Part shown: one piece after another, positions 22,800-45,678 of the stretch
How the letters are laid out: the number at the start of each line of letters is the position of its first letter
Position numbering within the stretch: position 1 is the first letter of the stretch
DNA from: an uncultured Leptolyngbyaceae cyanobacterium
Lineage (GTDB): Bacteria > Cyanobacteriota > Cyanobacteriia > Leptolyngbyales > Leptolyngbyaceae
Direction of reading: 5' to 3'
DNA: 64,000 nt
Assembly: GCA_938023035.1 (NCBI GenBank)
Contig: CALIDI010000031.1
Span: forward strand, 1-64,000
Notes under the pieces: model-generated
Told to the model about the DNA's origin: nothing
The model's database searches: none
Seen by the model: only the letters and a program-made list of their open reading frames with translations
Made by a program: the position numbers and the translations under genes

Positions 22800-23345
22800 A
22801 TGAATGTCATCTCGACAGCAATTCCTGAAGTGCTGATTATTGAGCCTCGTGTCTTTGGCGACGAACGGGGCTTTTTTATGGAGAGCTATAACCAGCAGGC
22901 CTTTGCTGATAAAGCAGGAATCACGGCCCACTTTGTGCAGGATAATCACTCGCGCTCTAGTAAAAACGTCCTTCGAGGATTACATTATCAAATTCAGCAG
23001 GCCCAGGGTAAGCTTGTGCGGGCCATTGTGGGAACAATATTGGATGTTGCTGTTGATATTCGGCGGAGTTCTCCGACCTTCGGTCAATGGGTCAGTTGTG
23101 AGCTGAGTGCTGAAAACAAGCGGATGCTTTGGGTTCCGGCTGGTTTTGCGCACGGCTTTCTGGTGACTTCAGAGGTTGCAGAAGTGCTGTACAAAGCAAC
23201 CGATTTCTATGCTCCCCAGTACGAGCGCTCGATTTTGTGGAACGACCCAGACCTGGCGATCGCCTGGAACCTAGATGGAGAACCCGTCCTCTCTGCCAAA
23301 GATCTGGCAGGGAAACCCCTGAAAGATGCCGAAGTTTACTCTTAG
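22800..23345 (+). CDS. rfbC: dTDP-4-dehydrorhamnose 3,5-epimerase
   Basis: A 181-residue RmlC cupin that epimerises dTDP-4-keto-6-deoxyglucose at C3 and C5 in dTDP-L-rhamnose synthesis. Seen: EPRVFGDERGFFMESYN, the catalytic His in VLRGLHYQ, the active Lys in GKLVRAIVG, VAVDIRRSSPTFG, and the Tyr-containing ATDFYAPQYERSILWNDP. First gene of a four-gene block, 27 bases ahead of rfbA. Confidence 0.95.
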   Translation: MNVISTAIPEVLIIEPRVFGDERGFFMESYNQQAFADKAGITAHFVQDNHSRSSKNVLRGLHYQIQQAQGKLVRAIVGTILDVAVDIRRSSPTFGQWVSCELSAENKRMLWVPAGFAHGFLVTSEVAEVLYKATDFYAPQYERSILWNDPDLAIAWNLDGEPVLSAKDLAGKPLKDAEVYS

Positions 23346-23372
23346 CCCACTTCTTCTATCTCTCTAACCCCT

Positions 23373-24449
23373 ATGAAAGCAATCATTCTCAGTGGCGGTA
23401 AAGGTACTCGGTTACGACCTCTCACCTACACTGGTGCCAAACAACTGGTACCCGTTGCCAATAAGCCCATCCTCTGGTACGGCATTGAATCTATCGTAGC
23501 GGCTGGCATTACCGATATTGGTATTATCATTAGCCCCGAAACGGGTGAAGAGGTGAAAACCAAGACCGGCAATGGGGAACAGTTTGGCGCTAATATCACT
23601 TATATCTTGCAGGATAAGCCTGCGGGGTTGGCCCACGCAGTGAAAACGGCTCGTCCTTTCTTGGGCGATTCTCCCTTTGTGATGTACCTAGGGGATAACC
23701 TGATTCAAGATCGGCTAAGTCCCCTGCTGAATATCTTCAAAGAGCAGCATATGGATGCCCTGATTATGCTGCGCCCAGTCCCTAACCCTACGGCCTTTGG
23801 CGTGGCTGAAGTCGATTCCCAGGGCAAAGTTCTACGACTGGTCGAAAAGCCCAAGGTGCCGCCTTCAAACCTGGCCTTAGTGGGCATTTATTTCTTTGAT
23901 AAAAGTATCCATGCGGCCATTGATCGCATCCAGCCCTCTGCAAGGGGTGAATTAGAAATCACCGATGCAATCCAAAACCTGATTGATCACAACTTGCATG
24001 TCGAAGCAAGTCAAATCGAGGGCTGGTGGCTTGATACAGGAAAGAAAGATGATTTGCTGAGTGCTAACCAAATTATCCTAGATACCTGTTTGCTTCAGCC
24101 CGTCGTTGCAGGCAATATCGATGAGAAGAGTCAAATCTCTGGCCGGGTGCAAGTTGGCGAGGGTTCCACCTTAATTAATTGCACAGTGCGTGGCCCGGTG
24201 ACCATCGGTAAGGGATGCCATCTCGAAAACTGCTTTATTGGCCCCTATAGCAGTATTGCGGATCAGGTTCATCTGGTCGATGTCGATGTGGAACACAGTG
24301 TGATTTTACAAGGGGCTAAAATTTCTGGCATTCATCAACGCATTGTTGATAGTGTGATTGGGCAACGCGCTCAGCTCCATGCGGCGCCTCCACGCCCTAA
24401 AGCACTACGGTTTATGATTGGCGATGATTGTCAAATTGAGTTGACTTAG
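23373..24449 (+). CDS. rfbA: Glucose-1-phosphate thymidylyltransferase, long form (StrD-type)
   Basis: A 358-residue enzyme that makes dTDP-glucose from glucose-1-phosphate and dTTP. The N-terminal nucleotidyltransferase fold has GGKGTRLRPLTYTGAKQLVPVANKP, the DNLI metal site (YLGDNLI) and VEKPKVPPSN. The C-terminal 100 residues form a left-handed beta-helix (hexapeptide-like GRVQVGEG, NCTVRGPVTIGKGCHLENC). This is the long rmlA type typical of StrD relatives and archaea, not the roughly 290-residue E. coli form. Directly follows rfbC. Confidence 0.92.
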   Translation: MKAIILSGGKGTRLRPLTYTGAKQLVPVANKPILWYGIESIVAAGITDIGIIISPETGEEVKTKTGNGEQFGANITYILQDKPAGLAHAVKTARPFLGDSPFVMYLGDNLIQDRLSPLLNIFKEQHMDALIMLRPVPNPTAFGVAEVDSQGKVLRLVEKPKVPPSNLALVGIYFFDKSIHAAIDRIQPSARGELEITDAIQNLIDHNLHVEASQIEGWWLDTGKKDDLLSANQIILDTCLLQPVVAGNIDEKSQISGRVQVGEGSTLINCTVRGPVTIGKGCHLENCFIGPYSSIADQVHLVDVDVEHSVILQGAKISGIHQRIVDSVIGQRAQLHAAPPRPKALRFMIGDDCQIELT

Positions 24450-27744: not shown

Positions 27745-28962
27745 CTAAACTTCGGGACTGGAAACAAGGTTCGCATTGCTGCTGTAGGCAATGCCTGCCT
27801 GCTGAAAGCGGCGTAGAACCTCTGCCAGGCGATCACACTCAGCAATTAGGCTAATCCGCACATAACCTTCGCCGCCGCTACCAAAAGCATTACCGGGAGT
27901 CACGACTACCCCTGTTTGCTGCAAGACTGATAGGGCAAAATCGGTGGAGTTTGTCGCGGGGGGGCAGGGCACCCAAAGGTACATCGTGGCTTTTGTTTTG
28001 GGAACATTCCACCCTAGTTCTGCCAGACCTGCAATCAAAAAATCTCGGCGCGTGCGATACCGGGCTTGAACCTCGTGGAGATAGACATCGGGCAAACGTA
28101 AAGCCGTCTCTGCGGCTGTTTGTAAAGCGGCAAAGATGCCATAGTCCAGATTGGTCTTAAGGGTACGCAACCCTTGGATAATGTGGCGATTGCCCACAAC
28201 AAAACCAACCCGCCAGCCGGCCATGTTGTAGGTTTTAGACATGGTGTGAAACTCAACCCCAAGCTCTTTCGCACCGGGAATTTCTAACAAGCTGGTGGGC
28301 TGATAGCCATCAAAGGCTAGCTCTGCGTAGGCCTGATCATGCACTAGCAAAATCTCATACTTGCGGGCAAAAGCCACGATTTCCTCAAAAAACTCTCTGG
28401 GAGCCGTTGCTGCCGTGGGGTTACTGGGATAGTTGAAGTAGAGAATTTTAGCCCGCTCGGCGATCGCATCGGGAATGGCAGCTAAGTCAATTAACCAATC
28501 ATTGTCGGGGCGCAGCACCAGACTGTAAATCTCCGCCCCCGCAATCAAGGGGCCACGGAAATGGGCGGGATAGGCGGGGCTGGGTACCAGCACCAAATCC
28601 CCTGGGTTGATATAGGCGAGGGCCAGATGGGTCAGCCCTTCCTTTGAACCAAGCAGCGGCAGGGCTTCGCTTTCGGGGTCAAGCTGCACCCCATACCGGC
28701 GATGATACCATTCTGTAATCGCCCGCCGAAAATTAGCCGTACCTTCAAAGGGGGGATAACCATGATTCTTGGGATTTTGCAGTGCCGCGATCGCCGCTGC
28801 GACAACCGGTTCAGGAGTGGCTCCGTCGGGATTTCCCATCCCCAAATCAATTAAATCTAACCCCTGCTCGCGCGCCCGTGCCTTTAGCTCATCCAACCGA
28901 GCAAACACGTAGGGGGGTAAAGAACTCAGGCGAGCAGCAGGACTGAGCCAGTCAAGTTTCAT
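27745..28962 (-). CDS. Class I/II aminotransferase, LL-diaminopimelate aminotransferase-like
   Basis: A 405-residue PLP enzyme of fold type I. Seen: LDLGMGNPDGATPEPVV, GYPPFEGTANFRRAI, the PLP-contacting FNYPSNPTAATAP and VHDQAYAELAFDGYQP, and the Schiff-base Lys in SKTYNMAGWRVGF. It resembles the LL-DAP/alanine/aspartate aminotransferase group; the exact substrate cannot be read from sequence. Its start overlaps the stop of the upstream iron-ADH gene by 4 bases, so the two are translationally coupled and perhaps act on the same metabolite. Confidence 0.85.
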   Translation of the reverse strand: MKLDWLSPAARLSSLPPYVFARLDELKARAREQGLDLIDLGMGNPDGATPEPVVAAAIAALQNPKNHGYPPFEGTANFRRAITEWYHRRYGVQLDPESEALPLLGSKEGLTHLALAYINPGDLVLVPSPAYPAHFRGPLIAGAEIYSLVLRPDNDWLIDLAAIPDAIAERAKILYFNYPSNPTAATAPREFFEEIVAFARKYEILLVHDQAYAELAFDGYQPTSLLEIPGAKELGVEFHTMSKTYNMAGWRVGFVVGNRHIIQGLRTLKTNLDYGIFAALQTAAETALRLPDVYLHEVQARYRTRRDFLIAGLAELGWNVPKTKATMYLWVPCPPATNSTDFALSVLQQTGVVVTPGNAFGSGGEGYVRISLIAECDRLAEVLRRFQQAGIAYSSNANLVSSPEV

Positions 28963-30155
28963 CCCGACACCTCCTCAGTCATCACAGGGACAAAGGGCGT
29001 GGTTGTTTCCAAGAGTTGTCCACTCCCATCCAGTTTTCTGTCGTCAGAGCGGTTGGGTGACTGGGTAGAGACCATGGCCGCAATGAGATGCAGCGGATCT
29101 ACCTTAAAGGGCAGGTGATGAATGTCTGAGGTTGGCTGACACGCGATCACGGCGGCTTGCTGGAGTTCTGCCAAGGTCACCTGGGCTAACCCTAACGCCT
29201 CTAGGTTTTGGGGGAGACCAATTGTTTCATAAAACTTGAGGAGTTGCTGCCGGGCTGTTGCCGCCAGTTGGCTCCCCTGGAGCATTTCTTCTAAACGCAA
29301 CTGGACGAGAATCCCATAGGCCACTTTTTCGCCATGGAGCGCCCCATGGCAAGCTGGAAGATGGGTCAGGCCATTGTGCACGGCATGGGCTGCCACAGTA
29401 CGACATTGGGCACCCCCTAGACCCCCAATCACCCCCGCCAGCAGCACGGTAGCATCGACCACCTCTTGCCAGACAGGGCCTCCTGGTTCTGCTAGGGCGA
29501 TCGCAGCCTTTTGCAGCAAAATATCTCGCAGCACTCTTGCCTGTTGGACAGCGGCAATGATCAATGTTTGTTCCGAATGTCCACTACTAACGGACGCCTC
29601 ATACCATTTCGCGATCGCATCCCCGATACCTGCGACCAGCGTTCGGGTTGGGGCTGACTGAATCAAGCCATAATCTAAGACCAACAAATCTGGACAGTGC
29701 GGCAGCGGCACATCATAGAGAAAAGCCCCCCGATCAGAGTAGACATTGGATAATGCCGTCCAAGCGGCACAGGTTGCCGCCGAAGAGGGAATCGTCACGA
29801 TGGGAAGCTGGCACTGATGGGCTAATAACTTAGCTGCATCCAGAGCTTTGCCGCCTCCTAGCCCAACGATCACATCGGCTCGATGCTGCATCACAGACTG
29901 CCGCATTTTTGCCAGTGTTGCTTCACTACAATCTGGACTGTAGGTAACCGTTACCCCTTCACAAGATTCGGCCTGCAACGCAGGTAGTACGTTGGCCTTG
30001 GCCAGTACCATCGTTTGGCGACCACTGACCACCAAGGGGCGATGGCCTAAAGTCGCGATTGCAGGCCCAACCTGGGCCAAAATCCCCCAACCGCGCATCA
30101 CTTGAGCCGGGGCAACTGTGAGGAAGGGTAAAGCCGTGACAGTCATAGACAACAC
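28959..30155 (-). CDS. Iron-containing alcohol dehydrogenase family protein (glycerol dehydrogenase-like)
   Basis: A 398-residue group III dehydrogenase. The NAD(P)-binding GLGGGKALDAAK loop is at about 98-109. Candidate metal ligands are Asp in AGIGDAIAKWYEA (about 178) and the two His in AAHAVHNGL and HGALHGEKVAYG. It resembles GldA-type enzymes more than butanol dehydrogenases. The actual start may be ATG at residue 4 (MTVTALPFLT). It is the first gene of the pair with the aminotransferase. Substrate unknown. Confidence 0.83.
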   Translation of the reverse strand: MLSMTVTALPFLTVAPAQVMRGWGILAQVGPAIATLGHRPLVVSGRQTMVLAKANVLPALQAESCEGVTVTYSPDCSEATLAKMRQSVMQHRADVIVGLGGGKALDAAKLLAHQCQLPIVTIPSSAATCAAWTALSNVYSDRGAFLYDVPLPHCPDLLVLDYGLIQSAPTRTLVAGIGDAIAKWYEASVSSGHSEQTLIIAAVQQARVLRDILLQKAAIALAEPGGPVWQEVVDATVLLAGVIGGLGGAQCRTVAAHAVHNGLTHLPACHGALHGEKVAYGILVQLRLEEMLQGSQLAATARQQLLKFYETIGLPQNLEALGLAQVTLAELQQAAVIACQPTSDIHHLPFKVDPLHLIAAMVSTQSPNRSDDRKLDGSGQLLETTTPFVPVMTEEVSG

Positions 30156-30230
30156 TCACAAAAAGAAACGCAAAACTTTCTCAGTAGCCCGCTCCTTCTG
30201 ACTTCTGAGAGGGCTTTGATATCTACACCC

Positions 30231-30746
30231 TCAAGTTGCCGAGGCGGCCTGCACTTCGGCAAGACGAGCAGCATCAATGGTCACCTCAACAGTTTGGGTT
30301 GGCCCAGTCAAGGATCGCTGCGCTTGTCCCAAGTAGACAGGCTGAGAAACTCCCGGTGCTGGATGTAGAACAACCCGCGCCCGTACCGTTAAAGTACCAT
30401 CAGCCGATAAACGCCCCGGCGAAGCCAAATCCACAGCCGCCTGTTGCAAGGTGGCTTGTAGTTGCTCTGCTGTAATTTTGGGGGGAACCGTGACCACAAC
30501 CTGATTCGCCCCCGTATCGTAAACCCGTGTAAACCGCAAAGCGTTGGGAATGGAGGGGCGATCATGGAGACCTAGGCTGAGAGCAAAAAAACCAGCCGTT
30601 AAGACCCCCATAAAACTGGTGACCCCTACCAATCGAAATCGCACCCCCCATTGAAAAATCCAGGCGGCAATGGTTATAGCCAACATTGCCAGCGTGGCAT
30701 AGCCAAACCATTGGGCATCGGTAACCAATTGATGGATAGATAACAT
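30231..30746 (-). CDS. ycf51: Ycf51-family membrane protein
   Basis: A 171-residue protein with two predicted membrane helices near the N-terminus (YATLAMLAITIAAWIFQWGV and FMGVLTAGFFALSLGL) and a soluble C-terminal domain of about 100 residues (VVVTVPPKITAEQLQATLQQAAVDL). The layout matches Ycf51 (DUF2518), conserved in cyanobacteria and red algal plastids, function unknown. The C-terminal domain probably faces the lumen or periplasm. Confidence 0.75.
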   Translation of the reverse strand: MLSIHQLVTDAQWFGYATLAMLAITIAAWIFQWGVRFRLVGVTSFMGVLTAGFFALSLGLHDRPSIPNALRFTRVYDTGANQVVVTVPPKITAEQLQATLQQAAVDLASPGRLSADGTLTVRARVVLHPAPGVSQPVYLGQAQRSLTGPTQTVEVTIDAARLAEVQAASAT

Positions 30747-43204: not shown

Positions 43205-44053
43205 TTAGCGTGGCGAGGGTTCTAGGATCCGATTAGAATTGATCCATCCTTCCTGGCCCCGCGAGCTGCGAATGAGATACCAGGTAATGCGACTACTGCT
43301 TTCGTAGTAGGTGCGCAAAACAGTGACTGACTCATTCCGAGACACGCGCTCAACGTCCCGCTTGTTGCTGCGGTTAGGGCGATTCACAATGGTGGTGTCA
43401 TCCGAGCCAATAACTGCCCGATAGGGGCGCACAGCGTCACCCCAATAGGTTTCCACATCGCTATCTTGGTCAAAGTCGTCATCCTCATCCTGCCATTGAT
43501 CATCAACTCGATCTGCGTTAATCCAACCGCGTTGACGGCGCGATCCTTCGATTAAATACCACGTGATCCGACGGCTGCTCTTATAATAAGTGCGATAGAC
43601 GGTGAGGCTCTCGTTGCGGCGTACCTCGCCAATATCGCGCTTATTGCGGTGATCAGGGCGGTTGACGATGGTTGTATCGTCTGAAGTAATCCTTGCCCGA
43701 TAGGGGCGGACAGGATCACCCCAGTTGGTTTCAAGATTTCCTGCGATATTTCCACTGCCGGAGTTTTGGGTAATCCGAAACTCGGTAACCCGCCCGCGCC
43801 GATCTACAATGCAATAGCCGGTAGCATTGTGTATGCGGTTAATGCGCCAGTATACAAAGGCTCTCCCGAAACTACTAGAGTCTCGCTCAAAGACTTGAAT
43901 GGCTGAGTAGGGAATGCCTTGAAACTCTCTGCGAGAGGCAACATAGTCGCGGCAGGCTCGCAGTTAACCGACAGATTGGGCGATCGCGGCGTTGAGCGGT
44001 GCCAATGTTGCTACCGTTGTAATGGCCAGACTAATAATGGTGACTGGTTTCAT
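43205..44053 (-). pseudogene. Exported protein with two SH3-like repeats, interrupted by an in-frame TAA
   Basis: From the ATG at 44053 the first 29 codons give a signal peptide (MKPVTIISLAITTVATLAP...AIAQSVG). A TAA follows at 43966-43964, and the same frame then continues open for 252 codons to 43205. The downstream part begins LRACRDYVASRREFQG, has a strand-rich domain with YCIVDRRGRVTEFRI, then two near-identical repeats of about 75 residues each (WGDxVRPYRA, SDDTTIVNRP, WYLI, GWIN). CAA to TAA is a single transition, and Gln fits the position. Only a GTG at 43456, within the second repeat, could start a truncated product. The coding frame is otherwise intact, so the stop is recent or a base-call error. 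Confidence 0.8.
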
Positions 44054-45040
44054 CGGTATTTTCAGTTGCCTCAGGGGATAAAAAGTTCAAGTAAAATTAC
44101 TCAGTCGCCACGTGTAAACCGAGTTCATTGCCCTGCTAGTCGCTATTGCCAGGAAACTAAGAACGGGATGGAGCCTGAATCAAATACTTCTATCTTACGG
44201 CTTAATTATTGGGAATGGGTCTCCCGGTGACTGAGAACAGGATGGATCTCAAATCAATCAAACGTTGAGGGGAATTCCGCCGTTGGCTGAAGAACTTGAA
44301 TGCCCTGTCTCCGAAGATGCTCTATTCAAATAGTCATGCCAGCAACGCTGATGGTGACCTTCAATTTGGCGAATTCTGAACAAAGGAGGATTTTAATGGA
44401 GGAAAGTTTTCTCCTATTGCTACAGAATTTAGTGATGTTCTGAGACTTCTGCCTGTTCCCATGGTGGTAAAGAAAGTGTCACCCCTGCTCTTATCATGGA
44501 GCGCGGAGCGTCCTGGGCTAACTTACCTGGGCTAACTTAATGGGTGTTGCGTATCTAAACGTAGATTTCTGGTACAGAAACTGTTCCAGAGTAATGGGCG
44601 ATCGCCAGCTTGCTAAGTCTTTTGAGAGGTAATGGGATGTGAAGGCGCCGCCCCTAGCCAAGGGGGCTAACCCTGCACCCTGTCCAATCAAACAGCGATG
44701 GCAATCATCACGAATGTCAGTGGTCAAAGACGAGGCGAGCTTGGCAAAAATCAGCCGCTTGTTTAGAGTGCCTCAACCGTAGACGCACTGAGAACTTTTA
44801 CGGTGCGCTTTGGTCTTTTGCCTTCCCTGTAGCAAGACGGATGCAGAGATAAAGGGAAGAACTAGGGTTGGTTGTCAGTGCTCTAGTGCTGCCGACAAGC
44901 CTAAAGTATCCCCTTTAACATTCATCCCCTTTAAAATTCGATATTTGACATTTGACGAAAAACCATCAAGCACGCTTGTCATGCATCTGCCAAAAAACAG
45001 CGTCTTCTCCAACTTTCTTTCCAGACTGTTGCTGAGAAAG
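44054..45040. other. Long intergenic region without a supported gene
   Basis: About 990 bases. It contains an imperfect direct repeat (ACTAAGAACGGGATGGA at 44156 and ACTGAGAACAGGATGGA at 44230), a 15-codon frame with an exceptionally good ribosome binding site (AAAGGAGG at 44382-44389, ATG at 44396, stop at 44443), and a GC-rich segment near 44640-44680. Frames of 69 and 79 codons have no family features. Confidence 0.45.
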
Positions 45041-45408: not shown

Positions 45409-45678
45409 ATGGCTCTGCTGCAACAGCGCAAACAAGAACTAATTTCGGAATACCAGATTCACGAGACGGATACAGGATCTGCCGATTTGCAGGTAGCAAT
45501 GCTTTCTGAGCGAATTAATCGCCTCAGCTTACATCTGAGAAGCAATAAGAAAGATCATGCCTCTCGGATGGGCTTGATGAAAATGATCGGAACTCGCAAG
45601 CGCCTCCTTAGCTACATTCAAAAGCAAGATGAGAAGCGCTACCGAGCCTTAATTGCCAAATTAGGCATTCGCGGATAG
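45409..45678 (+). CDS. rpsO: 30S ribosomal protein S15
   Basis: An 89-residue primary 16S rRNA-binding protein. Seen: HETDTGSADLQVAMLSERINRLSLHLR, NKKDHASRMGLMKMIGTRKRLLSYI. Length is standard. It is followed after 12 bases by the PAM68-like gene, probably in one operon. Confidence 0.97.
   Translation: MALLQQRKQELISEYQIHETDTGSADLQVAMLSERINRLSLHLRSNKKDHASRMGLMKMIGTRKRLLSYIQKQDEKRYRALIAKLGIRG

Follow-up and report, generated by a model that had tools for sequence, protein, structure and literature searches.

An exported protein with SH3b-like repeats is encoded on the reverse strand of the window, i.e., the whole stretch of 64,000 nucleotides of a Leptolyngbyaceae genome that was analysed here, and its gene is interrupted by one in-frame stop codon. 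The locus is probably a nonsense pseudogene of recent origin, and its intact form would have encoded a dispensable protein. The frame runs from 44053 to 43205 and counts 283 codons from ATG to the terminal stop, with a TAA at codon 30 (43964-43966, reverse strand) as sole interruption. Translation thereby bears out an earlier note on this DNA, which had described an 849-base frame that is intact apart from this TAA; the other 281 sense codons contain no further stop and no frameshift. The piece of 252 codons 3′ of the TAA is open and has a coding score of +29, against -25 to -44 for the remaining five frames. With an off-frame stop frequency of 0.0538 in the window, the chance of finding 252 open codons is approximately 9e-7. 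Moreover, residues 1-223 of the homologue in Leptolyngbyaceae cyanobacterium M33_DOE_097 (G001), a member of the same genus, align straight through the TAA with 53% identity. The signal peptide and the body of the protein thus belong to one frame.

The frame starts with a putative signal peptide at codons 1-25 (43979-44053, reverse strand), recognized by eye from a hydrophobic core and a cleavage site of the form AAIA|Q. Residues M1, K2, L9, L17, A23, and A25 of this peptide are common to the relatives. The earlier note placed the stop immediately after the signal peptide, which is a fair description, as the likely cleavage site A25|Q26, again assigned by eye, lies four codons upstream. The peptide is followed by a two-cysteine module at residues 31-97 (43763-43963, reverse strand; C34 and Y80-C81), which also occurs in other cyanobacterial exported proteins, either alone or with other partners. 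The C-terminal part consists of two SH3-like repeats. Repeat 1 spans residues 107-182 (43508-43735, reverse strand), as derived from the repeat alignment and from the strands in the predicted model, and repeat 2 spans residues 200-276 (43226-43456, reverse strand), where Pfam SH3_3 matches above its cut-off and the opening codon is the first in-frame GTG past the TAA.

In the piece 3′ of the stop, SH3_3 matches a single stretch, located in repeat 2, and scores 35.5 bits (cut-off 27), while the last 83 residues on their own score 24.7 bits and remain under this cut-off. Repeat 1 is SH3-like through its resemblance to repeat 2, judging from their alignment. Over 76 codons, the two repeats show 48 differences at third positions and 10 at second positions. 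Because they are alike in protein and differ in this pattern, they are an old duplication that was maintained by selection, and the statement in the earlier note that they are well conserved with each other holds. Based on the domain type, the probable binding partner of the SH3b-like repeats is the cell wall or another polymer of the envelope. The GW-domain families do not reach their cut-offs in this protein (PF13457, 18.2 bits against 21; NF033202, 17.4 against 50) and the NCBIfam search returned no family above cut-off. The structure was predicted with low confidence (mean pLDDT 57). The model shows the repeats as strands and the module as one helix and four strands, the latter with low to moderate confidence. 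The best PDB matches that Foldseek finds for this low-confidence model include SH3b proteins, e.g., internalin B and SlpA, and no match spans the whole model with a good TM-score. A search of solved structures yielded only an antibody chain (E 0.097), which was taken as a chance match.

The two-cysteine module is not covered by any family in the Pfam search of the window protein, and it may be an undescribed domain. It measures about 65 residues, carries the pattern C..Y/F ... W ... GYC/FCxV and is found in assorted cyanobacterial exported proteins. Loci bearing the module are L025:1192-1776 (in the window's own genome, C5), L024:1483-2073, L021:1033-1848, L031:811-1758, and L033:1090-1869; the protein of L031 has three copies of it. 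Weak matches or a visible likeness to the module were seen in two exported proteins, one of 194 residues from the own genome and one of 196 residues from G001, and in proteins of the genomes G023, G284, and G209.

Matches to the protein are scarce. With the own genome included, they occur in 3 of 58 relatives, in 4 of 42 genomes of the family, one of which (G023) matches the module alone, and in 8 of 388 genomes of the class. The full-length architecture is present in four of these 388 genomes, namely the window's own, G001, Pantanalinema sp. GBBB05 (G012) and a more distant relative (G089). The searched viral contigs contain no relatives of the protein. A comparison with relatives at codon 30, as proposed in the earlier note, shows that the frame is intact in all three homologues, the residue in the stop column being glutamine in G001, glutamine in G012, and proline in G089. 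Among the genomes examined, with the genus sampled by two, the stop is private to the window's genome. The change from CAA to TAA that had been proposed requires one transition and is compatible with the glutamine codon of the same-genus homologue. Two separate matches in G001 raised the suspicion of a frameshift there; this was ruled out, as they belong to one frame of 369 codons with an extra repeat.

The substitution pattern gives an indication of the history of the gene. The window and G001 differ at 62% of the third codon positions against 28% of the second. This pattern, together with the one between the repeats, indicates that the gene was under purifying selection for a long time in the past. 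Saturation of the synonymous sites prevents a lineage-specific dN/dS estimate. Relative-rate counts, given as changes on the window side to changes on the G001 side, are 27:17 with G012 as outgroup and 24:23 with G089 as outgroup; neither is significant (chi-square by hand 2.3 and 0.02, respectively). The non-significant lean of the first count to faster change in the window lineage would suit an older loss. Of the 2529 possible single-base routes, 96 (about 4%) create a stop, so that roughly 26 random substitutions are expected per first stop, and after 40 random substitutions at most one stop is still present in 55% of cases. The presence of a single stop consequently dates the loss only loosely. 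Taken together, the clean frame, the selection pattern and the relative rates favor a recent loss, without giving it a date.

Several elements mark the gene as accessory. It is rare, its surroundings vary in the relatives that were checked, and it evolves fast: the identity to G001 is 57% for the protein of the broken gene, against 84% and 87% for the products of two neighboring genes, a frame that we take to be rpsO and a PadR-like gene. In G001 the gene lies beside queC, while the homologues of rpsO and PadR are on a different contig, which means that there is no fixed neighborhood. The loss is therefore probably tolerated. The own genome, a draft of 62 contigs, contains one full copy of the gene and 12 SH3_3 matches at an E-value of 0.01 or better, including that of the window.

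An explanation that is unlikely, but that retains some weight, is that the stop is a wrong consensus base or a minority allele from a strain mixture, and that the gene is intact in the population. A single base suffices to account for the lesion, the sequence around the stop resembles a gene under selection and the assembly is a draft. The expected numbers point in the other direction. Wrong bases are uncommon in assembled contigs, and over the 43 kb of long frames in the window, about 0.02 stop-making errors are expected, assuming an error rate of 1e-5 per base of which about 4% create a stop. A coding-potential scan of the window, which is blind to stops near starts and hence also to codon 30, found no other gene broken mid-frame. 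Two of the three places named by the scan, at 28959-30746 and 22800-24449, are different neighboring genes according to Pfam, and a third, at 45676, falls between the rpsO-like frame and the next gene, as judged from position alone. For comparison with the expected errors, a report on Anabaena sp. 90 (PMC3542288) gives 227 pseudogenes, 10.1% of which arose through nonsense mutation. By our own arithmetic, this corresponds to about 23 nonsense pseudogenes in the 5.3 Mb, or to about 0.3 in a stretch of 64 kb, a base rate taken from one other, IS-rich cyanobacterium. The ratio of about 0.3 real nonsense pseudogenes to 0.02 errors favors a real stop, although these are rough estimates and the latter depends on an assumed error rate.

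The earlier note additionally considered that the protein could be made in another way, an idea that finds no support here. Production in spite of the TAA, by readthrough or by reinitiation just downstream, would be in line with a downstream frame that is intact and was selected in the past, but it is very improbable. The in-frame ATG, GTG, and TTG codons past the TAA are at codons 200, 208, 223, 237, and 246. An internal start of these three types ahead of codon 200 is thereby ruled out, and a restart at codon 200 or later would give at most 83 residues that lack the export signal, the module and repeat 1. The stop is absent from all three intact homologues and hence is no programmed trait of this family, which speaks against programmed readthrough or recoding. 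The refuting case named in the earlier note, in which relatives would share the stop and start internally, is not what the relatives display. TAA is moreover an ordinary terminator that ends 14 of the 38 window frames of at least 600 bases, and the three tRNAs of the window (Thr, Tyr, and Leu) are ordinary as well. There is a very slight chance that low-rate readthrough, or a restart at a non-standard codon just past the TAA, lets the exported SH3b protein persist in trace amounts in this lineage. If true, this would be a cyanobacterial case of stop-codon bypass. Still more remote is the idea that a short frame resembling a signal peptide by chance precedes a separate gene that truly starts past the TAA. 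Some flags for stops inside genes are indeed caused by alignments running on before the true start: of the PadR paralogues of Pantanalinema, in which in-frame stops were flagged in three rows, the two that were inspected have these stops ahead of the true start and carry no lesion. For the window gene, no usable start is present between the TAA and codon 200, and in the relatives signal peptide and body are unbroken and align from residue 1. This two-gene reading is already contradicted by the alignments.

Recent inactivation is the option that fits best among the three given in the earlier note. The ancestral product would have been an exported cyanobacterial protein composed of a signal peptide, the two-cysteine module and two SH3b-like repeats. 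A point change in the window lineage would then have turned codon 30 into a stop, and translation would end with a signal-peptide stub of 29 residues. No functional product would be expected, because the downstream starts all lack the export signal, and the loss was probably tolerated since the gene is accessory. The absence of further lesions and the retained pattern of past purifying selection suggest that it occurred recently.

Scans for promoters and terminators gave 2 and 1 hits, against 1.8 and 1.3 expected from shuffled sequences, and nothing beyond. The Rfam search returned the three tRNAs only. A long stretch, 44100-45000, separates the broken gene from the tRNA-Thr/tRNA-Tyr pair, and the open frames listed in it are short and unconvincing. 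Paralogous PadR-like genes lie at G012:C68:116056-119083 (L042, L043) in Pantanalinema. At 43205-43456 on the reverse strand, an 83-residue frame started by GTG simply represents repeat 2 of the broken gene. Annotators could call this C-terminal frame, with its GTG at 43456, as a gene, while it is actually a remnant. Besides this consequence for annotation, the apparent disappearance of an accessory exported SH3b protein in one lineage of the genus has little import.

One of the closest known counterparts is the homologue of G001 (L002, L026; contig DVDV01000016.1). Like the window gene, it encodes a putative signal peptide, the two-cysteine module and SH3-like repeats; unlike the window gene, it specifies 369 residues with three repeats, has no stop, and adjoins queC, apart from the neighbors found in the window. 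Bacterial SH3_3 proteins (Pfam PF08239) are a further counterpart, given the score of repeat 2 and the SH3b proteins among the Foldseek matches; the window gene departs from them in being interrupted. As to the lesion itself, the window gene resembles nonsense pseudogenes of other cyanobacteria, such as those of Anabaena sp. 90 (PMC3542288), in that the frame is intact save for a premature stop. It differs from that set in what appears to be a single and recent lesion.
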